From assembly GCA_017467905.1 (NCBI GenBank), contig JAFUKD010000005.1, positions 62,001 to 126,000 of the forward strand: a DNA stretch of 64,000 nt. The letters run 5' to 3'. Positions within the stretch are counted from its first letter, which is position 1, and every line of letters begins with the position of its first letter. Below the pieces are notes generated by a model that was not told the origin of the DNA, did no database searches, and was given only the letters and a program-made list of their open reading frames with translations. The position numbers and the translations under genes were made by a program. This document shows, in pieces, positions 17,707 to 52,165 of this stretch. This stretch comes from Phascolarctobacterium sp. (lineage in GTDB: Bacteria; Bacillota; Negativicutes; Acidaminococcales; Acidaminococcaceae).

Positions 17707-18282
17707 TTATTTGTTGAATACCACGTCAACCATCATATCGCTGTCCAAATTGCAAGCGTTGGCTTCGTCCGTATCAATATGTACTTCGTCGGCGTGTGCC
17801 TCCCCTGCTCTAATCAATACATTGTGTAAGGTGATGGAGCGTTCTCCTTGAGTTACCAAGTCTACGATATCGCCATCCTTCAAGCCGTATTTAGCAGCAG
17901 TTTCAGGATACAGATGTACGTGGCGTGCAGCAACGATAATGCCTTCGGGGATTTCTACTTCACCTGCAGGGCCTACCAGCTTGCCGCCTGCAGAGCCGGC
18001 AATTTTGCCACTGTGGCGGATAGGAGCGTTCAAGCCAAGCTTGCGCGCATCAGTAAGAGCCAGTTCGATTTGAGTTTCAGGGCGCAAGGGACCGATAATG
18101 CGCAGCTTCATTTCACCTTTGGGAGTAACCAAGGTGATTTGTTCTTCAGAAGCGTATTGACCGGGTTGACCGATTTTCTTTTTAACGTGCAGTTCACTGC
18201 CAGCACCAAATAAAATATCCATGTGTTCACGGCAAAGATGGGCGTGACGAGCGGAAACACCTAATACTAACGGAAATTGCAT
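17707..18282 (-). CDS. pduL: Phosphate propanoyltransferase PduL
   Basis: Phosphotransacylase that interconverts acyl-CoA (propionyl- or acetyl-CoA) and acyl-phosphate, allowing ATP formation with an acyl kinase. Two tandem beta-barrel domains each carry an ARHxHL zinc/His motif (residues 12-17 and about 117-122). The 191-aa length matches stand-alone PduL. There is no N-terminal encapsulation peptide and no microcompartment shell gene nearby, so it is probably a cytosolic enzyme of the main fermentation route. It has its own promoter, with inverted repeats upstream suggesting regulation. Confidence 0.92.
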   Translation of the reverse strand: MQFPLVLGVSARHAHLCREHMDILFGAGSELHVKKKIGQPGQYASEEQITLVTPKGEMKLRIIGPLRPETQIELALTDARKLGLNAPIRHSGKIAGSAGGKLVGPAGEVEIPEGIIVAARHVHLYPETAAKYGLKDGDIVDLVTQGERSITLHNVLIRAGEAHADEVHIDTDEANACNLDSDMMVDVVFNK

Positions 18283-18479: not shown

Positions 18480-19871
18480 TTATAGCTTGCTTAAATATTC
18501 GTCAATAGCTTGCGCCGCACGCTTTCCTGCTCCCATGGCAGAGATAACAGTTGCAGCGCCGGTAACAATGTCGCCACCGGCAAAGACACCGGGAATAGAA
18601 GTAGCACCAACTTCATTAGCAACGATGTTGCCACGTTTATTTACTTCCAGTTCAGGAGTAGTCTGCTTGATGAGAGGGTTGGGACCCTGACCGATTGCCA
18701 TGACCACCATATCTACGTCAAGCACGTACTCGCTGCCCTTAACTTCTACTGGACTGCGACGACCGCTGGCATCAGGCTCGCCTAATTCCATCTTCACACA
18801 TTCCAAGCCATTTACCCAACCTTTATCATCACCGAGGATGCGTACAGGATTGTTCAAGAGGCGTAGTTCAATGCCTTCTTCTTTAGCGTGATGGATTTCT
18901 TCCTTGCGAGCAGGCATTTCATCTTCGCCACGACGATAAACAATATACACATGTTCAGCTCCAAGACGTTTGGCAGTACGAGCTGCGTCCATTGCTACGT
19001 TGCCTGCACCTACGATTGCAGCTTTCTTGCCAACATAAACAGGAGTAGCCACCTCCGGGAATCGATAAGCCTTCATCAGGTTTACACGGGTCAGGAACTC
19101 GTTGGCAGAATAGACACCATTTAGATTTTCGCCGTCAATTTGCATAAAGTATGGCAAACCAGCGCCAGTGCCAACGTAAACTGCATCGAAGCCTTCTTCC
19201 TCCATCAGCTCTTTAATGGTAAATGTGCGACCAATTACTGCGTTGACAACAATTTTAACTCCTAAATCTTTTAGAGCTTTAATTTCGTGTTGGACAATTT
19301 CCTTAGGCAGACGGAATTGGGGAATACCGTACATCAATACGCCACCTGCATCGTGGAGCGCTTCATATAATGTAACTTCGTAGCCAAGCTTTGCCAAATC
19401 GCCGGCAACAGTTAAGCCTGAAGGACCGCTTCCCACAATGGCAACCTTCTTCCCTTTGGAGGCAATGTCCCCTGCTTCTACAGCATCCAAGCCATTTTCA
19501 CGAGCGTAGTCCGCAACGAAACGCTCTAAGCGACCAATAGCAACAGGTTCACCCTTGATGCCAAGCACGCATCTGCTTTCGCACTGGTTTTCTTGGGGGC
19601 ATACGCGACCGCAAACTGCGGGCAGGCTGTTCTTGCGTTTTAAAATCTTAATTGCTTCTGAGAAGTTTTCTTCTGCAACTGCCTTGATGAATTTAGGAAT
19701 CTCCACGTTAACGGGGCAGCCCTCTACGCAACGAGGCTTAGGGCAGTTCAAGCAGCGCTGCGCTTCGTCTACAGCCATCTCTTTGGTATAACCTAAAGCT
19801 ACCTCTTCAAAATTTTTATTGCGAATCTCAGCCGGTTGTTCCGGCATAGCATTTCTCATTCCTCCACGCAT
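18480..19871 (-). CDS. nfnB: NfnB subunit: NADPH-binding flavoprotein of ferredoxin:NADP transhydrogenase (GltA-like)
   Basis: Homologue of the glutamate synthase small subunit. An N-terminal domain carries cysteines for two [4Fe-4S] clusters (CLNCPKPRCVEGCP and CGRVCPQENQCESRC), followed by two Rossmann folds (GSGPSGL and GAGNVAMDAA). Because an NfnA-type gene lies directly upstream and no glutamate synthase large subunit is present, it is best read as NfnB of the electron-bifurcating NADH-dependent reduced ferredoxin:NADP oxidoreductase. The start is uncertain: ATG 19871 has GGAGG 9 nt upstream, whereas ATG 19859 overlaps the nfnA stop as ATGA. Both keep the cluster motifs. Confidence 0.88.
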   Translation of the reverse strand: MRGGMRNAMPEQPAEIRNKNFEEVALGYTKEMAVDEAQRCLNCPKPRCVEGCPVNVEIPKFIKAVAEENFSEAIKILKRKNSLPAVCGRVCPQENQCESRCVLGIKGEPVAIGRLERFVADYARENGLDAVEAGDIASKGKKVAIVGSGPSGLTVAGDLAKLGYEVTLYEALHDAGGVLMYGIPQFRLPKEIVQHEIKALKDLGVKIVVNAVIGRTFTIKELMEEEGFDAVYVGTGAGLPYFMQIDGENLNGVYSANEFLTRVNLMKAYRFPEVATPVYVGKKAAIVGAGNVAMDAARTAKRLGAEHVYIVYRRGEDEMPARKEEIHHAKEEGIELRLLNNPVRILGDDKGWVNGLECVKMELGEPDASGRRSPVEVKGSEYVLDVDMVVMAIGQGPNPLIKQTTPELEVNKRGNIVANEVGATSIPGVFAGGDIVTGAATVISAMGAGKRAAQAIDEYLSKL

Positions 19872-20698
19872 CTGCAATGACCTCCACAGCTATATTCCAA
19901 AACCTCTTGGTTCTTGTACATTTGCTGGCGCATTACAAGGTTGGCAAAATCAACTTGGTGCGCGTCAAATTCCGGACCATCCACACAAGCAAATTTATTT
20001 TCACCGCCAACCATTACACGGCAGCCACCACACATACCGGTACCGTCAACCATTATAGTGTTCAGGCTTGCAGTAGTGGGTACGGCAAAGGGTTTGGTAG
20101 TTGCAGCAACGTTCTTCATCATAATAACTGGACCAATAGCAAGAACCAGGTCAACCTTCGTGCCTGCTTCCAGCATTTCACGTAAGGGGTCAGTTACGAA
20201 GCCCTTACGTCCTGCACTGCCATCATCAGTTGTAATAATCAGTTCGTCGCTGATTTCAGCCATCTTCTCTTTCCAAATCACCAAGTCTTTATTGCGAGCA
20301 CCGATAATGGAAATTACCTTGTTGCCTAGCTCATGATATGCGCGAGCAATGGGATACACGGGAGCAACACCAATACCACCGCCAACTACAACGACGGTAC
20401 CAAAATTTTTCATATGGGAAGGTTGCCCTAAAGGACCTGCAATATCTAAAATATTGTCGCCTTCCTTAAAGGTTTCGCACAAGTGCTTGGTAGTGTTGCC
20501 AACAGCTTGCACGATTAAGGTTATGGTCCCCTTCTTACGGTCAAAATCAGCAATGGTCAGCGGAATACGCTCGCTGTATTCGTCAGTGCGTACCATAACG
20601 AATTGACCGGGCTGGCATTTATGAGCAACCAAAGGAGCATCTACGATAAATTCATAAATACCATTAGCTAAATTTTGCATAAAAAGGATTTTAGCCAA
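19856..20698 (-). CDS. nfnA: NfnA subunit: FAD/[2Fe-2S] NAD-binding protein
   Basis: Ferredoxin-NADP reductase-fold protein of the PyrK/sulfide dehydrogenase beta group, 280 aa. A beta-barrel FAD domain (ERIPLTIAD near residue 45) is followed by an NAD-binding domain (VVVVGGGIGVAPVYP near 103-117). A C-terminal [2Fe-2S] motif runs DGTGMCGGCRV through FACVDGPEFD. It overlaps nfnB, and together they would form a soluble cytosolic complex that couples NADH, ferredoxin and NADP(H). The mtaD stop lies 20 nt upstream, so it is probably co-transcribed with the aldolase and deaminase genes. Confidence 0.88.
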   Translation of the reverse strand: MAKILFMQNLANGIYEFIVDAPLVAHKCQPGQFVMVRTDEYSERIPLTIADFDRKKGTITLIVQAVGNTTKHLCETFKEGDNILDIAGPLGQPSHMKNFGTVVVVGGGIGVAPVYPIARAYHELGNKVISIIGARNKDLVIWKEKMAEISDELIITTDDGSAGRKGFVTDPLREMLEAGTKVDLVLAIGPVIMMKNVAATTKPFAVPTTASLNTIMVDGTGMCGGCRVMVGGENKFACVDGPEFDAHQVDFANLVMRQQMYKNQEVLEYSCGGHCRCVEE

Positions 20699-20717: not shown

Positions 20718-21998
20718 TTATTTTTTTAAAAGCTCATCAACGCAGGCACAAGCCTCTGCGTAAATTTTCTCTTCATCAAATTGGGTAAGCTTACCATTTT
20801 GCAGTACAATCTTACCGGCAACAAGCACCGTGTCAGCATCATTTGCATTAGCAGCATAAACCAAAAGGGAAAGCTTGTTATGACGCGGGTACCAATAAGG
20901 TTTGTGCATATCCCACAGTACGATATCTGCCAGGTAACCAGCTTCTAATTTACCCAAGTTTTCAAAACCAAGTACCTTGGCTCCGTTAACAGTTGCCATA
21001 TCCCAAGCTTGTTCAGCAGGGACGGCCAAGGGATTAAAGGTAGTTGCTTTGTGGAGCATGGCAGCTAAGCGGCATTCTTCCAGCATATCCAAATTATTGT
21101 TACTGGAAGTACCGTCAGTACCGAGACCAACGCAAATACCTTTTTCCAACATTTTATCTACAGGGGCAATACCGCTTGCCAGCTTCAGATTACTTTGGGG
21201 GTTGTGAGCAACGCGCACCTTTTTAGCCGCCATAATATCCATATCTTCATCAGTCAGATGTACAGCGTGAGCAGCGATAGTGCCAAGGTCAAACATTCCC
21301 AATTTATCCATCATCACAATGGGAGTAACACCATGTTCTTTAACGTAGTCCTCCACTTCACCCTTAGTTTCGCACAGATGCATCTGAATTTCTACATTAT
21401 TTTCTTTAGCAGTAGCAATAACTTTTTCCAGATATTCAATAGGACAGGTGTAAGGAGCGTGAGGACCAAAGGTTACGCGGATGCGTCCGTTATCATAGCC
21501 ATTCCAGTCCTTGGCAAATTTGATATTTTCTGCCAGCTTTTCGTCTTTATCCGGGGTAACGCCAATCAAGCCACGGCAAAGGTTAGCACGAATACCGGTT
21601 TCTGCACAGGCTTTGGCAACCTCGTCCATAAAGTAGTACATATCTGCGAAGCAGGTAGTGCCACCTTTCAGCATCTCTGCGATACCCAGCATTGCTCCCC
21701 AGTAAATATCCTTCGCCCCCATTTTAGCTTCAAAGGGCCAGATTTTATTTTGCAGCCAGTCCATCAGCGCCATATCATCAGCGTAGCTACGGAGCAAGGT
21801 CATAGAAACGTGGCCATGAGTATTGACCATACCTGCGGTAGCAAGCTTGCCTGCCCCGTCGAGCACTTCTGCATCTGCGAAAGCAGCAGGAGCTTCCGTA
21901 CCAACGTAAACAATCTTATCATCTTCGATAGCGATACAATTCATTTCCCCGTTGGGAGTATGTAATAGTTCAATATTTTTTATTAAGAGTTTGCTCAT
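20718..21998 (-). CDS. mtaD: 5-methylthioadenosine/S-adenosylhomocysteine deaminase (amidohydrolase)
   Basis: Metal-dependent amidohydrolase of the MtaD/SsnA group, which deaminates the adenine ring of MTA, SAH, 5'-deoxyadenosine or adenosine. Metal ligands are visible: HGH in NTHGHVSM, MHLCET, AAHAVHL and GLGTDGTSSNNN. The start is ATG 21998 with GAGG 8 nt upstream; the in-frame GTG at 22007 overlaps that ribosome site. The class II aldolase gene is 54 nt upstream and nfnA 19 nt downstream. With mtnP, mtnA and ahcY in the same window, a role in clearing S-adenosylmethionine by-products is the best reading. Other guanine- or triazine-type substrates cannot be excluded. Confidence 0.85.
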   Translation of the reverse strand: MSKLLIKNIELLHTPNGEMNCIAIEDDKIVYVGTEAPAAFADAEVLDGAGKLATAGMVNTHGHVSMTLLRSYADDMALMDWLQNKIWPFEAKMGAKDIYWGAMLGIAEMLKGGTTCFADMYYFMDEVAKACAETGIRANLCRGLIGVTPDKDEKLAENIKFAKDWNGYDNGRIRVTFGPHAPYTCPIEYLEKVIATAKENNVEIQMHLCETKGEVEDYVKEHGVTPIVMMDKLGMFDLGTIAAHAVHLTDEDMDIMAAKKVRVAHNPQSNLKLASGIAPVDKMLEKGICVGLGTDGTSSNNNLDMLEECRLAAMLHKATTFNPLAVPAEQAWDMATVNGAKVLGFENLGKLEAGYLADIVLWDMHKPYWYPRHNKLSLLVYAANANDADTVLVAGKIVLQNGKLTQFDEEKIYAEACACVDELLKK

Positions 21999-22052
21999 TT
22001 CATTCACCTCTTGTAAATTTTATAACCTATATAAGACAAATCATCTGGTTAT

Positions 22053-22757
22053 TTACTTTTCTGTACCCATTTGACGTTTTGAGTAATGCTCTTCGTAAAA
22101 ACTATGCATTATCTCTGCGTCCTTACTGGAAAGTTCTACCGCTCCCCCACAGCTCTGGCAGATAATGGCTATTTGGGCAGCCTTCTCTAAAATTTCTGCT
22201 ACAATCAGTGCGTCTTCCAAGGATTTTCCCCAACACACCGCACCATGATTGGCGAGTAAAACTGCTTTACGTCCGTTCATTGCTGCTACTGCATTATCGG
22301 CAAGCTCCTGTGTTCCAGGCAAAGCATATTCTGCACAATGAACCCTACCGCCTATAATCTGTACTATATCCTCGATAATGGCAGGTACCGGTTTACGCAT
22401 GGCAGCTAAGGCACTGGCATATATGCTATGAGTATGGATAATAGCTTGCGCTTCGGGGCAAGCTGCGTAAATTGCGGTGTGCAGTTTGCTTTCGGAAGAA
22501 GGCGTTAGCGCACCATCCAAGGTTTGGCAAGCAGAATCTATTATAACAATATCCTCCGGTTTTTGGTTGGCATAGCCCCGTCCGGAAGGCGTAACTGCGT
22601 AAACACCATCAGCAATCTTCACGCTGATATTACCCCAAGAGCCGGCAACAAGCTTACGTTCCATAAGCTCCTTCCCCATATTTACGACTGCTTCTCTGGC
22701 AGAGCGTATAGCTTCTACTAAAATTTTTTTATCATTTAGAAGAACAGCTTCTTGCAT
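22053..22757 (-). CDS. Class II aldolase/adducin family protein, candidate MTRu-1P/5-deoxyribulose-1P aldolase
   Basis: Zinc-dependent FucA-fold aldolase. It has the metal histidines (HTH in AIIHTHSIYAS and H in LLANHGAVCWG) and the catalytic-type Glu in SSESKLH. Members cleave sugar-1-phosphates to dihydroxyacetone phosphate plus an aldehyde. Because the next gene is mtaD and mtnP/mtnA are present elsewhere in the window, the likely substrate is 5-methylthioribulose-1-P or 5-deoxyribulose-1-P (the DHAP shunt). Fuculose-1-P aldolase remains an alternative, but no fucose genes are near. The start is ATG 22757, 8 nt after GGAGG. A TATAAT lies upstream at 22795-22790. Confidence 0.8.
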   Translation of the reverse strand: MQEAVLLNDKKILVEAIRSAREAVVNMGKELMERKLVAGSWGNISVKIADGVYAVTPSGRGYANQKPEDIVIIDSACQTLDGALTPSSESKLHTAIYAACPEAQAIIHTHSIYASALAAMRKPVPAIIEDIVQIIGGRVHCAEYALPGTQELADNAVAAMNGRKAVLLANHGAVCWGKSLEDALIVAEILEKAAQIAIICQSCGGAVELSSKDAEIMHSFYEEHYSKRQMGTEK

Positions 22758-22853
22758 CCTGTTAACCTCCAAAATAATTTTACGCCTTTATTATAACATT
22801 TCCGATAAAGTTAATAAAGTAATAAAGAAAAAACAAAGGCTTCTCTAAATCAA

Positions 22854-23978: not shown

Positions 23979-26033
23979 TTATTGAAGTTGTTCGGACAGG
24001 TCTTGGGTCAAGCCAGCAGAACCATTCAGGTAGGAGCTGTACTCAGCTTGTTCAGCAGCTTGTGCAGCTTTTACGATGCTCAAGCCAATTTTTTTGCTGT
24101 CCAAGTCCATTTTCAGAACTTGTGCTTTAACAACTTGACCAACTTCCAATACGTCGTCAGCTTTAGCGATACGTTCTTCAGCGATTTCAGAAATGTGAAC
24201 CAAGCCTTCTACTTTGTCGCTAATTTTAACGATTGCACCGAAGGGCAGGAAGCGGAGAACTTGTACTTCAACGATATCGCCGATGTTCAATTTGCCAGCT
24301 TCAACTTTCCAAGGATCTTCTTGGGTAGCTTTAATGGAAAGAGCAACGCGTTTGTTTTCGCGGTCAATCTTTTTAATGTAAACTTCAACTTCGTCGCCAA
24401 CTTGTGCAACGTCTTCAGCTTTAGCATTGCGGTTCCAAGAGAGTTCAGTGTTGTGAACCAAGCCTACAAGACCGGTGCCAACTTCTACGAACAGACCGAA
24501 TTCAGCAATTTTAACTACTTTACCGGGAACGGTGGTGCCTTCTTCAACGGAAGCGTAAGCAGCTTCTTCAGCAGCGGCACGAGCTTCTTTAGCAGCAGCG
24601 ATACGTGCTTCTTTAGCTTCTTTCCAAGCTTTAGCTTTAGCTTCTTTTTCAGCTTTCAACAAGTCGCGGCGAGAAACAACGATGCGTTTCTTTTCCAAGT
24701 CAACTTCAATGATTTCAGCTTCCAATTCTTGACCAACATAGCCGGTGAAATCTTCTACACGTTTCAGTTCAACGTGGGAAGCAGGCATGAAGCCTTCAAC
24801 ACCTTCAACTGCAACTGCCAAGCCAACGATGTTTTTAGCTTTATTTTTAATGATGCGGATAACTTTAACGGTAGCTGCGCGTTTTTCGCCTTCAGCCAAT
24901 TCTGCAACGTTTTTCCAAGCAGCGTCGCGTTCTGCTTTAATTTTGGACATACGAACGAAGTCGTCTTTAGAAGTACCGGGGATAACTTTAACTTCTACTT
25001 TATCGCCAACTTTGATGGTTGCCATCAATTCTTCGGCAGTTTCAGTCAAAGACCATTCCGGATAGGTAACAATACCTTCGCGCATATAGCCAAAATCTAC
25101 ATAAACGCCATCTTTATCCAATTGAATAACGGTAGCTTCCACGATTTTACCGGGATATACGTTAACCTCCTCACTTTGTGCCAACAAACTTTCAAAATCC
25201 ATGTTTTCCATTGCTGCAATAGCCTCCTTAATTAAACGGTCGGGAGTTGATGCTCCTGCCGTGATTCCAATTTTAATACAATCTCTGAACATATCCGGCT
25301 CTAATTCAGCCGCGGTCTCAATGTGATAAGCCTTGGAGCATTTAGTTGCCACCAGCTCGTATAAGTGACGAGTGTTGGCACTGTTGCGTCCACCTATCAC
25401 GATAAAGGCATCAACCTCGCCTGCTAATTTCATGGCAGCGTTTTGGCGTTGCGATGTAGCTAAGCAAATTGTACGCTCTACCCTAAATTCACCCTTGCGC
25501 TCCTTTTGGATTGCTGCCAAGATTTCTTCAAACTTTTGCAGCTCAAAAGTGGTTTGGATGATGACCGCATACTTGTCTTTTTGCGGTATATCAGAAATAT
25601 CTTTTATACATTCGACAACAATAGCGTTTTCTCCTGCCCATTTTTTAATACTTTTTACTTCCGGGTGATTTTTTTCTCCAACAATCACAGGATAGAAGCC
25701 ATCTGCAGCTGCTTGAGCTGCTTTCTTTTGTGCCATACGCACGTTGGGACAGGTTGCGTCGATTATATTTAACTGCATTGCTTCTGCTTGGCTATAAATT
25801 TCAGGGCCAACACCATGGGAACGGAAGATAACCGTTTCTCCCGAAGTGAACTGCTGCAAACTTTCCTTGCAGGCGATGCCCTTGCCTTCCAGTTCAGCAA
25901 TAAGCTGTGGGTTGTGAATCAAAGGTCCCAAGGTTCCTCCCTTTACCCTTGCTTCCGCAGCTTCTTCTGCCATTTTTACGGCACGCTTTACACCATAGCA
26001 AAAACCGCAGTATTCTGCAATCTTAATTTCCAT
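23979..26033 (-). CDS. ispH: IspH (HMB-PP reductase) fused to four S1 RNA-binding domains
   Basis: Two-part protein. Residues 1-285 are 4-hydroxy-3-methylbut-2-enyl diphosphate reductase, the last DXP-pathway step, with [4Fe-4S] ligands Cys12 (GFCYGV), Cys95 and Cys190 and the GITAGASTPD motif. Residues about 293-660 hold four S1 repeats like ribosomal protein S1. Between repeats 2 and 3 lies a 37-residue Ala/Lys/Glu-rich segment (about 460-496) likely to be a helical spacer. This fusion is known in Clostridia and Negativicutes. The start is ATG 26033, which places Cys12 as in other IspH; it overlaps the plsC stop. The TTG at 26060 is rejected because it adds nine unconserved residues. Confidence 0.93.
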   Translation of the reverse strand: MEIKIAEYCGFCYGVKRAVKMAEEAAEARVKGGTLGPLIHNPQLIAELEGKGIACKESLQQFTSGETVIFRSHGVGPEIYSQAEAMQLNIIDATCPNVRMAQKKAAQAAADGFYPVIVGEKNHPEVKSIKKWAGENAIVVECIKDISDIPQKDKYAVIIQTTFELQKFEEILAAIQKERKGEFRVERTICLATSQRQNAAMKLAGEVDAFIVIGGRNSANTRHLYELVATKCSKAYHIETAAELEPDMFRDCIKIGITAGASTPDRLIKEAIAAMENMDFESLLAQSEEVNVYPGKIVEATVIQLDKDGVYVDFGYMREGIVTYPEWSLTETAEELMATIKVGDKVEVKVIPGTSKDDFVRMSKIKAERDAAWKNVAELAEGEKRAATVKVIRIIKNKAKNIVGLAVAVEGVEGFMPASHVELKRVEDFTGYVGQELEAEIIEVDLEKKRIVVSRRDLLKAEKEAKAKAWKEAKEARIAAAKEARAAAEEAAYASVEEGTTVPGKVVKIAEFGLFVEVGTGLVGLVHNTELSWNRNAKAEDVAQVGDEVEVYIKKIDRENKRVALSIKATQEDPWKVEAGKLNIGDIVEVQVLRFLPFGAIVKISDKVEGLVHISEIAEERIAKADDVLEVGQVVKAQVLKMDLDSKKIGLSIVKAAQAAEQAEYSSYLNGSAGLTQDLSEQLQ

Positions 26034-26637
26034 TTCTAACACCAGCTTGTAACTCTGCAATGCGCGCCATCATCTCATCAGTCATTTCTTTTAAGACTTC
26101 TTTGGTGATGGGTTCATCCTTGGGGAAATAGATGGGCTTGCCAAAACGTACATACACCTTGGGCCACAGCTTGCCGCAGCGTTTCACATCAGTACCTACC
26201 ACGCAAGCAGGTACAATGGGCGCAAGCGCCTTGCTTGCCATCATCAACGCACCGGGAGCAGCCTTGCCCAGCTCGCCGGTACGGCTACGGGTTCCTTCCG
26301 GAAAGATTGCCAAAACGCCACCGCTTTTCAAGAGGTCAATGCCGTATTTGATAGCAGCCTTATCATTGCCACCACGCTTTACCGGAAAGGCACCTAACAG
26401 CTTATACAAATCTCCTAAAATAGGTACGAACAGCTCTGCCTTAGCCATAAATTTAACCTTGCGGGTTGCTGCTGTTCCTAAAACAGGCGGGTCAAGCAAG
26501 CTAATATGGTTGCTTGCCAATACCAAGGGACCATTCAGGGGAATGTTCTCCTCGCCTTTAACATCCATACGCAGGAAGATGGTAAAGAGTACCCTCAATA
26601 TAAATTTAACAGTAGCATGAAAAATATTATACAGCAT
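26023..26637 (-). CDS. plsC: 1-acyl-sn-glycerol-3-phosphate acyltransferase
   Basis: Membrane-associated acyltransferase making phosphatidate, the second acylation in phospholipid synthesis. It has an N-terminal hydrophobic helix, the HX4D catalytic motif in SNHISLLDPP (near residue 38), and the substrate motif FPEGTRSRTGE (near 115). The start is ATG 26637 with AGGTG 9 nt upstream; an in-frame GTG at 26649 lies on that ribosome site. It overlaps cmk by 11 nt and ispH by 11 nt, so translation is tightly coupled. plsY, psd and pssA elsewhere in the window belong to the same pathway. Confidence 0.92.
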   Translation of the reverse strand: MLYNIFHATVKFILRVLFTIFLRMDVKGEENIPLNGPLVLASNHISLLDPPVLGTAATRKVKFMAKAELFVPILGDLYKLLGAFPVKRGGNDKAAIKYGIDLLKSGGVLAIFPEGTRSRTGELGKAAPGALMMASKALAPIVPACVVGTDVKRCGKLWPKVYVRFGKPIYFPKDEPITKEVLKEMTDEMMARIAELQAGVRNGN

Positions 26638-43104: not shown

Positions 43105-44052
43105 TTATTTACTCATTCGCCAGGCAAAGGCTGCACAACCGGTAGCATTATCACAGCTAAAGCGAGCTTCTGGAACCCATACGCTTACGCGGCGCTTAGC
43201 AAGCTTTTCTGTAACGTGGTTGCGAATGTAAGTGTTAGAAGCCACGCCACCAACTAACAGTACAGCATGGACATTGTATTCCGCTGCCCCGTTTCGCAGC
43301 ATACGGGTGAAGGTTTCTGCCAAAGCGTATTGCACGCCTAAAGCCAAGGCAGCACCATCTGCTCCTGCCTCCAGCTTACGCAGAGCTGCAGTGGCAGGAC
43401 CGCTAAGGCTTGCGTTCAGCTTTCTTACGGAAACAGGCAGTTCCACCATTTGTTCAGCAGTTGCCGCAAGCTTTTCCAATTCTGGACCCGTAGGAAACTT
43501 TAACCCCAAGGCCACGCCAACTCTATCAATAAACTGTCCGGCGTGAAGGTCAATGCTGCCACCAACCTCCGTCAGGTTAAATCTGCCATTTGCCTGTCGT
43601 TCCGCAAGCAGTAAATCCGTTGTGCCACCGGAAGCGTGCAACAACAAAAAGCGCTCCGCATCCGGACCACCTGCGCTCCACACACCAGCCTCCAGGTGAT
43701 TTTCCTGATGACTGATAATATGAAGCTTTGCTCCGGTAGCAGCTGCTAAAGTGCGAGCCACTCCGCTTCCTGCCAAAAACGCAGGCATATAAGAATTTTC
43801 TATAGGTCTGGGATAGCCGCTAACACCAATTGCCACAAGCTCATAATCCTTGTCCTGTAAAATTCCTTCCAATATATATGGTAGGTTACGTGTGTGCTGG
43901 AACACCATCTCGGATTGCTGCAAACCGCAACGACCGGGCTTGACATCTAAAATCTTACGCCCTTCCCCTATCAGCTTACCAGCTTCATCCAAAACTGCAG
44001 CAGATGTAGTATAGCAACTGGTATCAATCCCCAGATATACTCTTTGTTTCAT
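43105..44052 (-). CDS. Kae1/TsaD-like paralogue (ASKHA fold), function unknown
   Basis: A 315-aa protein of the Kae1/TsaD/YgjD superfamily. It keeps the ATPase fold, the metal motif HX3H in SHQENHLEAG (near 114-118), an LLHASGGTTDLLL phosphate loop and the C-terminal SCDNATGCAAFA. The sequence is shorter and more divergent than canonical TsaD, the t6A tRNA enzyme, and sits between nusB and xseA rather than with tsaB/tsaE/rimI. I therefore read it as the second, uncharacterised paralogue rather than TsaD itself. The label O-sialoglycoprotein endopeptidase is historical. Confidence 0.75.
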   Translation of the reverse strand: MKQRVYLGIDTSCYTTSAAVLDEAGKLIGEGRKILDVKPGRCGLQQSEMVFQHTRNLPYILEGILQDKDYELVAIGVSGYPRPIENSYMPAFLAGSGVARTLAAATGAKLHIISHQENHLEAGVWSAGGPDAERFLLLHASGGTTDLLLAERQANGRFNLTEVGGSIDLHAGQFIDRVGVALGLKFPTGPELEKLAATAEQMVELPVSVRKLNASLSGPATAALRKLEAGADGAALALGVQYALAETFTRMLRNGAAEYNVHAVLLVGGVASNTYIRNHVTEKLAKRRVSVWVPEARFSCDNATGCAAFAWRMSK

Positions 44053-46022: not shown

Positions 46023-46619
46023 CTAAGCTTTCCGCAAAATTAAATTCAACCACTTCTCGTCGCCTCTTCCGGGTCTGACATCACCAGTCACCCAAAATTC
46101 TTCAACCTTAATATCTTGGAACTGCTCTAAAAATTTATTGAACTTCTCTTCGTTCATGTCCGTAAAATATCTACCATTGCGCTCGCCCTCAAAAGTTCCG
46201 TACTTAAACGAGGTGTAAATAATCCCCTTATATTTCAGAGCCACAACCATTTTTAGAAAAACATCTTGCAATTCGTCATATGGTAAATGCAAAATGGAAG
46301 AACAAGCCCAAATGCCATCGTAAGCTTCAATTTCAGAAAGCTCTTGGAAAAACATCCGCTTTACTTTAATACCAGTAAACTCACTGGCAAATTTACACAG
46401 CTCCACAGACGCATCAATTGCCGTAACTTGAAAACCTTGGTCAAGAAAATACTTTGTATCTCTTCCACTACCGCAACCAAAATCCAAAATGTGAGAACCA
46501 CTTTCCAGTCTATTTATAAATTTGTTTTGAGTACCTGTAAAATCCACGTTAAGAGTGTCTTCTACAAAACCCTTAAATTGTTCATCATAATATTCCAAGG
46601 TTCTATCGTTCATTGTCAT
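46023..46619 (-). CDS. Class I SAM-dependent methyltransferase
   Basis: Rossmann-fold methyltransferase (198 aa) with motif I ILDFGCGSGRD (near 47-57) and the acidic loop VTAIDAS. The segment GIWACSSILHLPYDELQDVF is typical of the UbiE/Tam-like group, whose substrates vary. The start overlaps the exonuclease stop by 17 nt, so the two are coupled. It lies in an AT-richer block bounded by two near-identical hairpins and is probably accessory. No substrate can be named. Confidence 0.8.
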   Translation of the reverse strand: MTMNDRTLEYYDEQFKGFVEDTLNVDFTGTQNKFINRLESGSHILDFGCGSGRDTKYFLDQGFQVTAIDASVELCKFASEFTGIKVKRMFFQELSEIEAYDGIWACSSILHLPYDELQDVFLKMVVALKYKGIIYTSFKYGTFEGERNGRYFTDMNEEKFNKFLEQFQDIKVEEFWVTGDVRPGRGDEKWLNLILRKA

Positions 46620-47202
46620 TGAGTTCTTCCTTCAATTTAAGGTATGCTTCGTAAGTCCAACCCTTTTCCAGCATTTTTACAAGAACTTTGCCAGTGTTGT
46701 ACGCGTCATCAAAAGCGGTATGGGCAAGTCCGTCAGCAGAAACCCCCATTTCTACAATAGCTGTTTTCAAACCAGGAGTATTCTCCTCACCTCGCCACAA
46801 TTTGTACGCTTCTGCAAGGTCAAGATAATCTTCCAAGCGAATAGGGTTCTCCAACTTATGCCTATTACACCCTTCCTCTAAAACCTTGTAGTCCGCATCG
46901 CCCCAAGCGACAAAAAGAGTGTTGCCTGCTTCGTACATTGCAGTAAGCTTCTCGAGCATTGCAGAAAACTCAATCCCCTTCTTCATGTCTTTATCGGTAA
47001 TCATGCAAAAATCCATAGCGTCCTTCGCATGCTTGGGAAAGAAATGAGGCTTAACAAAGTTTTGCAGCTTGGCAGCTTCTTGTAAATTTTCACCCACAAG
47101 TTTTACCGCACCAACTTCAATGATTTCAGGAAAGAAGGCACGCGGACGACCAACGGGACGTTTATAAAAAGTAAATTCAAAATCCACTACTAAGTAATTC
47201 AT
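46603..47202 (-). CDS. DEDDh-type 3'-5' exonuclease (KapD/ERI-1-like)
   Basis: Exonuclease fold of about 199 aa. Metal ligands DFE in VVDFEFTFY (near the N terminus), an Asp in AWGDADYKVL and HTAFDDAYN near residue 170 give the DEDDh set. The GRPRAFFPEIIEVGAVKL segment is typical of KapD/ERI-1-like proteins that trim RNA or DNA ends. ATG 47202 has AAAGGAAG upstream. It is coupled to the methyltransferase gene; a short open frame precedes it. Confidence 0.85.
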   Translation of the reverse strand: MNYLVVDFEFTFYKRPVGRPRAFFPEIIEVGAVKLVGENLQEAAKLQNFVKPHFFPKHAKDAMDFCMITDKDMKKGIEFSAMLEKLTAMYEAGNTLFVAWGDADYKVLEEGCNRHKLENPIRLEDYLDLAEAYKLWRGEENTPGLKTAIVEMGVSADGLAHTAFDDAYNTGKVLVKMLEKGWTYEAYLKLKEELNDNER

Positions 47203-47203
47203 T

Positions 47204-47293
47204 TTAAGCTTCCTTTTTGTCAATATAAATCAATAATTGTTTTGGCACGTTCCTGAATAAATTGGACATAACCATTAAGGTTTCATCACTAAT
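47204..47293 (-). other. Possible tiny leader ORF or gene remnant ahead of the exonuclease
   Basis: A 29-codon frame ending 1 nt before the exonuclease start reads ISDETLMVMSNLFRNV and on to DKKEA. A strong AGAAGGAGGG site (47300-47309) lies 7 nt upstream of an ATT codon but no standard start fits it. It could be an ATT-started peptide, the decayed end of a lost gene, or chance. Confidence 0.25.
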
Positions 47294-48989: not shown

Positions 48990-50225
48990 TTATTCAGCTT
49001 CTAAATAAGCCTTTTGTTCTTCGGTTAATACGTCAATGCCTGCACCCATAGCTTGCAGTTTCAGTGCTGCAATTTCAGTGTTCAGTTCTTCCGGCAAAAC
49101 GTACAGTTCGTTTTGCATTTCTCCCCTGTGTTCCAGCAAATATTTCATTGCCAGGAACTGCATTGCAAAGGAAAGATCCATCACCTCGATGGGATGACCA
49201 TCGCCGCAAGCGAGGTTTACCAATCTGCCTTCGCCCAAGAGGTTCAGCTTGCGACCATCTGCCATGGTATAGGTCATGATGTTCTTGCGCACTTCATAAG
49301 GAGCAACTACGGAAAGCTCTTCCAAATGATTTTTGTTTACTTCTACGTCGAAGTGTCCTGCGTTGGAAAGAACTGCGCCGTCCTTCATCACTGCCATATG
49401 CTCTTTGGTGATTACGTCCTTGCAGCCGGTTACGGTTACAAAGATATCGCCGTATTTAGCAGCTTCAAGCATGGGCATCACGCGGAAGCCGTCAAATACA
49501 GCTTCAATGCCTTTAATGGGGTCAATTTCGGTAACGATAACATTGGCGCCCATTCCCTTTGCGCGCATGGCAACACCTTTACCACACCAGCCATAGCCTG
49601 CAACAACAACAGTTTTGCCTGCCACGGAAAGATTGGTAGTGCGCATGATACCGTCCCAAGAAGATTGACCGGTACCATAGCGGTTATCAAAAAGATATTT
49701 ACAGTAAGCATCGTTAACAGCAATCATTGGGAATGCCAAGTGGCCAGCCTTGGACAAGGCTTTCAAGCGATGTACGCCGGTAGTTGTTTCTTCGCTGCCG
49801 CCAATCAGCTTGCCAATCAAATCTTTACGTTCGCCATGAAGCATATTTACTAAGTCACCACCGTCGTCGATGATGAGATCCGGTTCAACCTTCAAAGCTT
49901 CGCGCAGGTACAGGTCATATTCTTCAGTAGTGCAGCCATGAGTTGCGAAAACAGTTATGCCGCTATCTACGAGAGCAGCAGCAACGTCATCTTGAGTGGA
50001 CAACGGGTTACTACCGGTTACAACAACATTAGCGCCTGCGTTCTTCAACACTTGCGCCAAATAAGCAGTCTTAGCTTCCAAGTGAATGGTAACAACCATA
50101 TTCAAACCTTTAAAGATTTGCTCTTTACTATATTTTTCGTTCAAGATATTGAGCAAGGGCATGTATTCTTTTACCCAAGCAATTTTTTGTTTACCGGACG
50201 GAGCCAGGTTAATGTCTTTAATCAT
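48990..50225 (-). CDS. ahcY: S-adenosylhomocysteine hydrolase family; possibly S-inosylhomocysteine hydrolase
   Basis: NAD-dependent hydrolase releasing homocysteine from S-adenosyl- or S-inosylhomocysteine. The NAD motif GYGWCGKGVAMRAKG and catalytic segments NDAYCKYLFDNRYG and DDGGDL are present. The form is short (about 411 aa), lacking the insertion of eukaryotic-type enzymes. In the base-binding segment, where human SAHH reads HMTVET with Thr57 and Glu59 near the adenine amino group, this protein reads HLEAKT, giving Glu50 and Lys52. That fits a 6-oxopurine ligand (inference). The start is taken at ATG 50225; a TTG three codons earlier is possible. mtnA ends 13 nt upstream. Confidence 0.88.
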   Translation of the reverse strand: MIKDINLAPSGKQKIAWVKEYMPLLNILNEKYSKEQIFKGLNMVVTIHLEAKTAYLAQVLKNAGANVVVTGSNPLSTQDDVAAALVDSGITVFATHGCTTEEYDLYLREALKVEPDLIIDDGGDLVNMLHGERKDLIGKLIGGSEETTTGVHRLKALSKAGHLAFPMIAVNDAYCKYLFDNRYGTGQSSWDGIMRTTNLSVAGKTVVVAGYGWCGKGVAMRAKGMGANVIVTEIDPIKGIEAVFDGFRVMPMLEAAKYGDIFVTVTGCKDVITKEHMAVMKDGAVLSNAGHFDVEVNKNHLEELSVVAPYEVRKNIMTYTMADGRKLNLLGEGRLVNLACGDGHPIEVMDLSFAMQFLAMKYLLEHRGEMQNELYVLPEELNTEIAALKLQAMGAGIDVLTEEQKAYLEAE

Positions 50226-50237
50226 GCTTTCCAAGGC

Positions 50238-51290
50238 TTAAAGTTCCTCCTTAATCTGAGCTTGCAATAATTTTATGTTTTCTTTGTAAGGAGCGGTCAC
50301 CACTCCGTATTCAGTGATAATGCCTGCGATAAGTTCTGCAGGAGTCACGTCAAATGACGGGTTAAAGGTTAAAGCTTTGGTAGGAGCAGTCACCTCGCTA
50401 CGAAAAGCCTTAACTTCGTCAGCACTGCGTTCTTCAATGGGAATCTGCTCACCGCTTGCAAGGGTAAAGTCAAAGGTGCTGGTTGGTGCCGCAATGTAAA
50501 AGGGTACGCCGTGTGCTTTTGCAGCCAGCGCCACACCGTAGGTACCAATTTTATTAGCAGTATCCCCGTTGGCAGCAATTCTATCTGCACCAACAACTAC
50601 TGCGTTGATGCCCTTGGTTTTCATTGTCCACGCCGCCATGCCGTCAGTGATGACAGTTACGGGAATATTATCTTCCACAAGCTCGTAAGCAGTTAGGCGT
50701 GCGCCTTGCAGTAAGGGACGGGTTTCATCTGCGTAGACCATTTTCAGCTTGCCTTGTTTGTGAGCTTCGCGCACTACGCCCAAAGCAGTGCCCCAACCGC
50801 AGGTTGCCAACGCTCCGGCATTGCAATGAGTCAAGAGCACGGTTTCCTGCGGCAAAACTTCCGCTCCGTACTCACCCATCTTCTTGTTTACGGCAATGTC
50901 GTCGTTATAAATCTTTACTGCCAATTTTTCCAGCTCTGCTATTATTTTGAAAGGTGCCAAGCCTTCTTCATTAAGCTTCACCGCAAGGGCATAAACCTTT
51001 TTCGCAGCCCATTCCAAATTTACAGCGGTTGGTCTGGCACTAATCAAGTCCTCTTTGATTTTATTAAGAGTTCCTAAAAAGTCAGGTCGCTTAGCAGCTT
51101 CCAGTGCGCCAAGCACCATTCCGAAGCCTGCTGCCGCGCCAATGGCAGGCGCCCCCCTAACTTCAAGTCTTTTAATGGCAAGCTTCACGCGTTTATAATC
51201 TTCGCAGGTAATCAGCTCCGTTAATTGCGGCAGTTTCGTTTGGTCAAGGAGAATCAGCTTGCCCTTCTCCCAACGCATGGTATCAATCAT
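50238..51290 (-). CDS. mtnA: S-methyl-5-thioribose-1-phosphate isomerase
   Basis: eIF2B-like fold isomerase turning 5-methylthioribose-1-P into 5-methylthioribulose-1-P; related enzymes also use 5-deoxyribose-1-P. The catalytic Cys is in THCNAGALAT and the catalytic Asp in VVGADRIAANGD; the family opener RGAPAIGAAAGFGM is present. The 350 aa are full length. It lies 12 nt after mtnP and directly before ahcY. No mtnK, mtnB, mtnC or mtnD genes of the aerobic methionine salvage pathway are in the window. Confidence 0.93.
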   Translation of the reverse strand: MIDTMRWEKGKLILLDQTKLPQLTELITCEDYKRVKLAIKRLEVRGAPAIGAAAGFGMVLGALEAAKRPDFLGTLNKIKEDLISARPTAVNLEWAAKKVYALAVKLNEEGLAPFKIIAELEKLAVKIYNDDIAVNKKMGEYGAEVLPQETVLLTHCNAGALATCGWGTALGVVREAHKQGKLKMVYADETRPLLQGARLTAYELVEDNIPVTVITDGMAAWTMKTKGINAVVVGADRIAANGDTANKIGTYGVALAAKAHGVPFYIAAPTSTFDFTLASGEQIPIEERSADEVKAFRSEVTAPTKALTFNPSFDVTPAELIAGIITEYGVVTAPYKENIKLLQAQIKEEL

Positions 51291-51302
51291 CTTTGCACTT
51301 CC

Positions 51303-52100
51303 TTACAGTTTAAAACCGCCTACTTCTGCCATAGCGTGAGGGCAGTTGCAGGTTGCATCAACATCTTCATTATAAGCAATGAATGCAGAAATAAGTTTTT
51401 CCATATTTTGAATACTCTTACCCATTTCCTCTACAACCTCGCTGTGAGTAAGGGGTGTGGGAGAAATGCCCGCAGCCATATTGGTAACGATGGAGCAATT
51501 TGTATAGCAAATCTCTGCTTCGCGAGCCAGGATGGATTCCGGAATATTGGTCATTCCAACAAGGTCTCCGCCCAGCATAGCGAACATTTTGATTTCCGCA
51601 GCAGTTTCAAAACGCGGGCCTTCGGTGCAAACGTAGGTGCCGGTTGCGCGGAAGGGAATATCCGTCTTTTTGAGAATGTTAATTACCTTTTCGCGCAGTA
51701 CAGGGCAATAAGGACTGGTTACATCCACATGAGCAACACCGCGATATTCATCATCATAGAAAGTGTTGATACGGCTCTTGGTAAAATCTAAAGCGTTGTC
51801 GCACACAACAAAGTGTCCTGCCTTCATCTCCGGGTTCAAGGACCCAACGGCAGTTGTTGCAAAAATTTCTTCAACGCCTAAGCTTTTAAGTGCCCAAATG
51901 TTGGCACGATAATTTACTTTATGAGGCGGGGTCTTATGCCCTACGCCGTGACGAGTAATGAACACTACCATATTGCCGTGCATCTCGCCAATATTGCACA
52001 ACGCTTGGCCATAGGGTGTTTCAATAATTTTGCTTTCAAATCCGCTTAAAGCTTCAGGATTATAAATACCGGTTCCGCCAATAATTGCAATCTTACGCAT
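51303..52100 (-). CDS. mtnP: MTA/MTI phosphorylase family protein, predicted 6-oxopurine (methylthioinosine) type
   Basis: Purine nucleoside phosphorylase-fold enzyme that splits a methylthio-nucleoside with phosphate into the free base and 5-methylthioribose-1-P. Phosphate and ribose segments TRHGVGHKTPPHKVNYRAN, TEGPRFET and GMTNIPE are visible. The base-specificity loop reads VTNMAAG: Asn207 stands where human MTAP has Asp220 and where 6-oxopurine PNPs have Asn. This predicts methylthioinosine or inosine-type substrates. ATG 52100 has AAGGAGGAAG upstream; the earlier in-frame ATG-like start overlaps that site. First gene of the mtnP-mtnA-ahcY operon. Confidence 0.88.
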   Translation of the reverse strand: MRKIAIIGGTGIYNPEALSGFESKIIETPYGQALCNIGEMHGNMVVFITRHGVGHKTPPHKVNYRANIWALKSLGVEEIFATTAVGSLNPEMKAGHFVVCDNALDFTKSRINTFYDDEYRGVAHVDVTSPYCPVLREKVINILKKTDIPFRATGTYVCTEGPRFETAAEIKMFAMLGGDLVGMTNIPESILAREAEICYTNCSIVTNMAAGISPTPLTHSEVVEEMGKSIQNMEKLISAFIAYNEDVDATCNCPHAMAEVGGFKL

Positions 52101-52165
52101 TATAGCTTCCTCCTTCAAAATAAATTTATCTCTTTGATAAAATGCTTACCACTCATAAATTTTCT

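Follow-up and report, generated by a model that had tools for sequence, protein, structure and literature searches.

Five genes in the window, the 64,000-nucleotide stretch of a Phascolarctobacterium genome analyzed here (Negativicutes, Acidaminococcaceae; 1.84 Mb, 99.7% complete), are likely, with a probability of approximately 80%, to recycle the by-products of S-adenosylmethionine along a route that begins with deamination and ends in DHAP and an aldehyde. All substrates and reactions are inferred from the identities of the genes, the conservation of their operon, base-recognition motifs, and the absence of alternative enzymes; the gene evidence itself is strong. In the proposed route, the deaminase DadD would convert 5'-deoxyadenosine, SAH, and any MTA to their inosine forms, and an S-inosylhomocysteine (SIH) hydrolase-type enzyme (SIHH) would split SIH into inosine and homocysteine. 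An MtnP-type phosphorylase would release hypoxanthine and 5-deoxyribose-1-P from 5'-deoxyinosine, and would also act on methylthioinosine and probably inosine to yield the counterpart sugar phosphates. MtnA would isomerize 5-deoxyribose-1-P to 5-deoxyribulose-1-P, which a class II aldolase would cleave to DHAP and acetaldehyde, with the MTA-derived substrate giving DHAP and methylthioacetaldehyde. SAH and 5'-deoxyadenosine would be the main inputs, and MTA a lesser one.

The five genes are all on the minus strand and fall in two clusters 26 kb apart. One cluster consists of ald (22053-22772), encoding the class II (zinc) aldolase (PF00596, E = 6e-54), and dadD, also termed mtaD (20718-22007), encoding a 5'-deoxyadenosine/MTA/SAH deaminase of the DadD/TM0936 type (PF01979, E = 6e-72), with 45 bases between them. 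The other spans 48990-52118 and is composed of mtnP (51303-52118), a 6-oxopurine-type (methylthioinosine) nucleoside phosphorylase (NF006599, 259.9 against a cut-off of 223; also TIGR01694), mtnA (50238-51290), a 5-methylthioribose-1-P/5-deoxyribose-1-P isomerase (TIGR00512, 418.7 bits, cut-off 279), and sihh (48990-50234), an 'ahcY'-like gene for the SIHH-type enzyme. An initial annotation had described the aldolase and deaminase as an adjacent pair, with mtnP and mtnA elsewhere in the window. Both genes are real and located where it placed them, as are mtnP and mtnA, but the end given for the aldolase (22757) is an internal ATG and the open reading frame extends to a TTG start codon at 22772. 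The SAH-hydrolase-like gene directly behind mtnP-mtnA had been overlooked, and the adjacency of ald and dadD, while correct, is that of the detached end of an operon of five genes, the overlooked one among them, and not of a stand-alone pair.

This view of the pair comes from the relatives, in which the order mtnP-mtnA-sihh-ald-dadD forms one operon that is kept across the family, order, and class. Within the genus the distance between sihh and ald grows from 1.0 kb (G002) to 2.4 kb (G003) to the 26 kb of the window genome, and thus ald-dadD can be read as having been carried away from the ancestral operon. The two genes are adjacent in nearly all relatives with this type of ald, which argues against a chance pairing. 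In sister species, sihh and ald are separated by homologues of the methyltransferase-like and KapD-like exonuclease genes that the window has at 46023-47223 (minus strand), which mark how the operon broke. There are several variants of the cluster. In Clostridia, clusters without sihh have the order mtnP-mtnA-ald-dadD or dadD-mtnA-mtnP-ald. Four Negativicutes loci lack ald (mtnP-mtnA-sihh-dadD), and two genomes, both with MTAN-like proteins, have sihh-dadD alone; these arrangements show that the aldolase step is separable and count against the proposed route. An Rfam search of the window returned one tRNA only and no riboswitch upstream of the operon. The five-gene operon is widespread in anaerobic bacteria of the gut and sediment, where it appears to recycle S-adenosylmethionine waste.

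Other genes of the window, all on the minus strand, deserve mention in their own right. A GltA/Nfn-like flavoprotein pair follows dadD (18480-20698); the first gene of this pair is likewise found behind dadD in many members of the family. Further along is a PduL-type phosphotransacylase (17707-18282), alongside which no microcompartment genes were noticed. On the other side of ald, a long open reading frame (23979-26060) resembles, by eye, IspH fused to S1 RNA-binding repeats. A TsaD/Kae1-like protein (43105-44052) scored 122 against the TsaD cut-off of 296 and 121 against the Kae1 cut-off of 375, and is probably a divergent paralogue.

Three separate signs, found in the hydrolase, the phosphorylase, and the deaminase, suggest that the pathway would favor hypoxanthine nucleosides. 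Family models name the sihh product adenosylhomocysteinase, and its closest solved structure is an S-inosyl-L-homocysteine hydrolase (PDB 7r3a, E = 1e-156). It carries the HxExK motif as HLEAK (residues 51-55), and the motif occurs in all 49 untruncated homologues from the relatives and in 29 of 29 from a sample of the phylum. HxExK marks hydrolases that prefer SIH (PMC10978960), and such enzymes retain some SAH activity (PMC10978960), which counts against a strict SIH reading. In MtnP, 'TNMAAG' aligns with 'VNPAAG' of the P. aeruginosa enzyme 3ozb and not with the 'TDYD' of MTA phosphorylases. The base-site residue is Asn in 53 of 55 copies, as in the P. aeruginosa methylthioinosine phosphorylase, where MTA phosphorylases have Asp. 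For the two Asp-type copies (L125 and L149), which may represent one lineage, dadD is not seen in the roughly 6 kb around the aldolase gene. Together with its score above the NF006599 cut-off, the Asn places MtnP among the methylthioinosine phosphorylases.

The third sign is the active site of the deaminase and its basic residues. The best NCBIfam model for the deaminase is PRK06038 (486 bits, under the cut-off), and all of its metal and active-site residues (HHE HHE H D) are conserved; the eight positions are kept in nearly all copies among the relatives. Arg136 and Arg148 of TM0936, which have a role in binding the carboxylate of SAH, correspond in the alignment to R145 and K157, respectively. 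With an SIHH-type enzyme in the same operon, the SAH (methyl) cycle is probably also among the tasks of the deaminase. An HxExK hydrolase, a DadD/TM0936-type deaminase with an intact active site, and the lack of Pfs and LuxS are features expected of SIH-type recycling, and all three are seen here. A DHAP shunt calls for MtnA with MtnP (or with a nucleosidase plus kinase), and mtnA and mtnP are adjacent here, with products above their model cut-offs.

Alternative enzymes are missing from the genome. Genome-wide profile searches found no MtnK (TIGR01767), MtnN/Pfs (TIGR01704), or LuxS, and the window aldolase is the sole PF00596 protein, hence there is neither an MtnB nor a second aldolase. The initial annotation is supported in part: it envisaged deamination followed by the action of MtnP, MtnA, and finally a class II aldolase, and this order of steps is supported, in a genome where both MtnB and MtnK are absent. 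Its emphasis on MTA alongside 5'-deoxyadenosine is less well placed: a genome search for spermidine synthase came back empty, so MTA is probably a minor substrate, and MTA as the main substrate was rejected on this basis and with no source of much MTA found.

The relation to LuxS was also followed on larger scales. Among 61 relatives, LuxS was restricted to four genomes of one genus, all without sihh and ald, such that a switch to LuxS within the family rests on that single genus. Across 149 genomes of the phylum, 92 had an SIHH-like protein (a count that includes lower matches at 48-52% identity and is made irrespective of motif status), 25 had LuxS, and none had both (Fisher p = 6e-13, relatedness ignored). 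A DadD-like protein was present in 87 of the 92 SIHH genomes vs. 29 of the 57 others (p = 6e-10, relatedness ignored, with paralogues possibly counted). A broader proposal, for which the odds are judged slightly better than even, is that much of the Bacillota, including common gut anaerobes, processes SAH via SIH and not via adenosine or Pfs-LuxS, that their 'adenosylhomocysteinases' are SIH hydrolases, and that the linked aldolase is a separate family, with Glu-Asp in place of the FucA Tyr, that cleaves 5-deoxyribulose-1-P. Until now, deamination-first recycling has been attributed mostly to methanogens and thermophiles; in the present phylum sample, a large share of the genomes have this motif and these partner genes, mutually exclusive with LuxS. 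If the proposal is true, many 'adenosylhomocysteinase' annotations name the wrong substrate, bacteria with the SIH route do not produce LuxS-derived AI-2, and SAH, 5'-deoxyadenosine, and MTA are disposed of through a single operon in anaerobic settings.

The zinc histidines of the aldolase (H113, H115, and H176) are intact, as originally noted, and the FucA-type Glu is retained as E94 within 'PSSE' (FucA Glu73). The predicted model (pLDDT 92) superposes on its nearest structures, DrdA and FucA, at 1.2-1.6 Å. Sequence identity is 30% to E. coli Ald2 (30197-30838 of L202, from the annotated E. coli ATCC 25922 record), 36% to DrdA, 32% to FucA, and 37% to 4c24, while E. coli Ald2 and E. coli FucA are 57% identical to each other. 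In a tree built without long branches, and with a sampling that excluded R. rubrum Ald2 and M. jannaschii MJ1418, the four reference enzymes formed one clade (support 100/89) with the window aldolase outside. The position of Tyr113 in FucA, a residue examined by mutants in PDB entries and shared by DrdA and E. coli Ald2, is occupied by Glu134-Asp135, and an acidic pair (ED, EE, DE, or DD) is found there in 57 of 58 dadD-linked copies. A close kinship to E. coli Ald2, of the kind that the initial annotation suggested, is not borne out. As judged from its sequence, the aldolase is not of the characterized E. coli Ald2/DrdA lineage, and a different, uncharacterized subfamily would fill the last step. 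Because the catalytic Tyr113 of FucA is missing, the reaction assigned to the enzyme is more tentative than its pathway position. Relatives with the acidic pair in Bacteroidota, Asgard archaea, Planctomycetota, and others (L091-L124) are solitary, without mtn or dadD neighbors, and no consistent gene neighbors were found for those in Bacteroidota and Asgard archaea; a plasmid search gave distant matches only.

Three other explanations for the aldolase were weighed, all of them unlikely. The one that survives best, though improbable, is that it acts mainly on ribulose-1-phosphate in the catabolism of nucleoside ribose, with inosine released by SIHH passing through ribose-1-P and, via MtnA, ribulose-1-P to DHAP and glycolaldehyde. 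The module should indeed yield inosine, and no purine-type phosphorylase other than MtnP was found, the one other PNP_UDP_1 protein of the genome being a uridine phosphorylase. The aldolase scores 143.5 bits on the haloarchaeal ribulose-1-phosphate aldolase model, but this is far under the cut-off of 300, and a phosphopentomutase-like gene elsewhere could take ribose-1-P. Further, the clusters without sihh still join ald with dadD, mtnP, and mtnA, and thus inosine derived from SIH is not required for the association.

A marginally weaker possibility, that the protein is an MtnB-like dehydratase or AraD-like epimerase, draws on the acidic pair where FucA, DrdA, and E. coli Ald2 have Tyr, given that MtnB and AraD use acids near this position (Glu139 and Asp120, respectively). 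The assignment was rejected on scores, with 86.5 bits against the MtnB cut-off of 137 (TIGR03328) and all AraD cut-offs missed; the retained FucA Glu73 and the close superposition on DrdA and FucA also argue against it, and no later salvage genes came up in searches that covered MtnB but not mtnC or mtnD. Least probable by far is an ordinary fuculose- or rhamnulose-type aldolase near the deaminase by accident: the fold is that of a class II aldolase and the top generic name is L-fuculose-phosphate aldolase, but that score is under the cut-off of its model, as are all others for FucA (170 vs. 264 and 109 vs. 400 for NCBIfam models; 112 vs. 250 for the methanogen model), Tyr113 is replaced, the protein is outside of the FucA clade, and, across the class, ald keeps its place in the salvage operon. 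A firm grouping with these aldolases had been named beforehand as the outcome that would count against the salvage role, and phylogeny against Ald2, DrdA, and FucA gave no such grouping with the fuculose aldolases, with rhamnulose aldolases compared by score only. Cleavage of 5-deoxyribulose-1-P, as the last step of S-adenosylmethionine by-product salvage, is the preferred reading.

As chemistry, initial deamination has a precedent, described for Methanocaldococcus jannaschii between 2014 and 2018. The M. jannaschii route proceeds through DadD, SIH hydrolase, MtiP, and MtnA (Miller, White et al. 2014, 2015, 2018; PMC10978960, PMC6302742), and shares with the present system initial deamination, an HxExK SIH hydrolase, a promiscuous hypoxanthine nucleoside phosphorylase, and an isomerase. 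That system is archaeal, and its 5-deoxyribulose-1-P is proposed to lead to 6-deoxy-5-ketofructose-1-P (PMC6079011), whereas the operon described here is bacterial and includes a dedicated class II aldolase. The DHAP shunt of R. rubrum and E. coli (MtnK or MtnP, MtnA, and Ald2; PMC10986504, PMC12632272) likewise uses an isomerase and a class II aldolase to produce DHAP and an aldehyde, and entry by a phosphorylase is a known variant, but it handles adenine nucleosides via Pfs or MtnP and has no deaminase or SIH arm. Moreover, E. coli Ald2 belongs to the FucA clade, unlike the window aldolase, a comparison that covers the Ald2 of E. coli and not that of R. rubrum. The DrdK-DrdI-DrdA disposal of 5-deoxyribose in B. 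thuringiensis (PMC6079011) shares the isomerase and aldolase steps and the aldolase fold, yet begins with a kinase acting on 5-deoxyribose, and DrdA, 36% identical, keeps the Tyr at the 113 position.

Among bacteria, Thermotoga maritima combines TM0936 with an HxExK SAHH (PMC10978960), and so resembles the present system in pairing a deaminase with an SIH-preferring hydrolase; T. maritima is thermophilic and has an MTAN homologue as well, and the literature found for it describes no operon with a salvage aldolase. The MTA deaminase (4gbd) and methylthioinosine phosphorylase (3ozb) of P. aeruginosa are similar in that MTA is deaminated and methylthioinosine phosphorolysed by an enzyme with the base-site Asn, but no SIH arm or aldolase is known alongside, and the deaminase lacks an Arg aligned to TM0936 Arg136. 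A literature search, conducted largely without subscription journals, found no paper on the combined operon or on an SIH route in mesophilic Bacillota. Each single step has a precedent in M. jannaschii, T. maritima, P. aeruginosa, or the DHAP shunt, and it is their union in one operon and the spread of that operon in the Bacillota that appear to be new.
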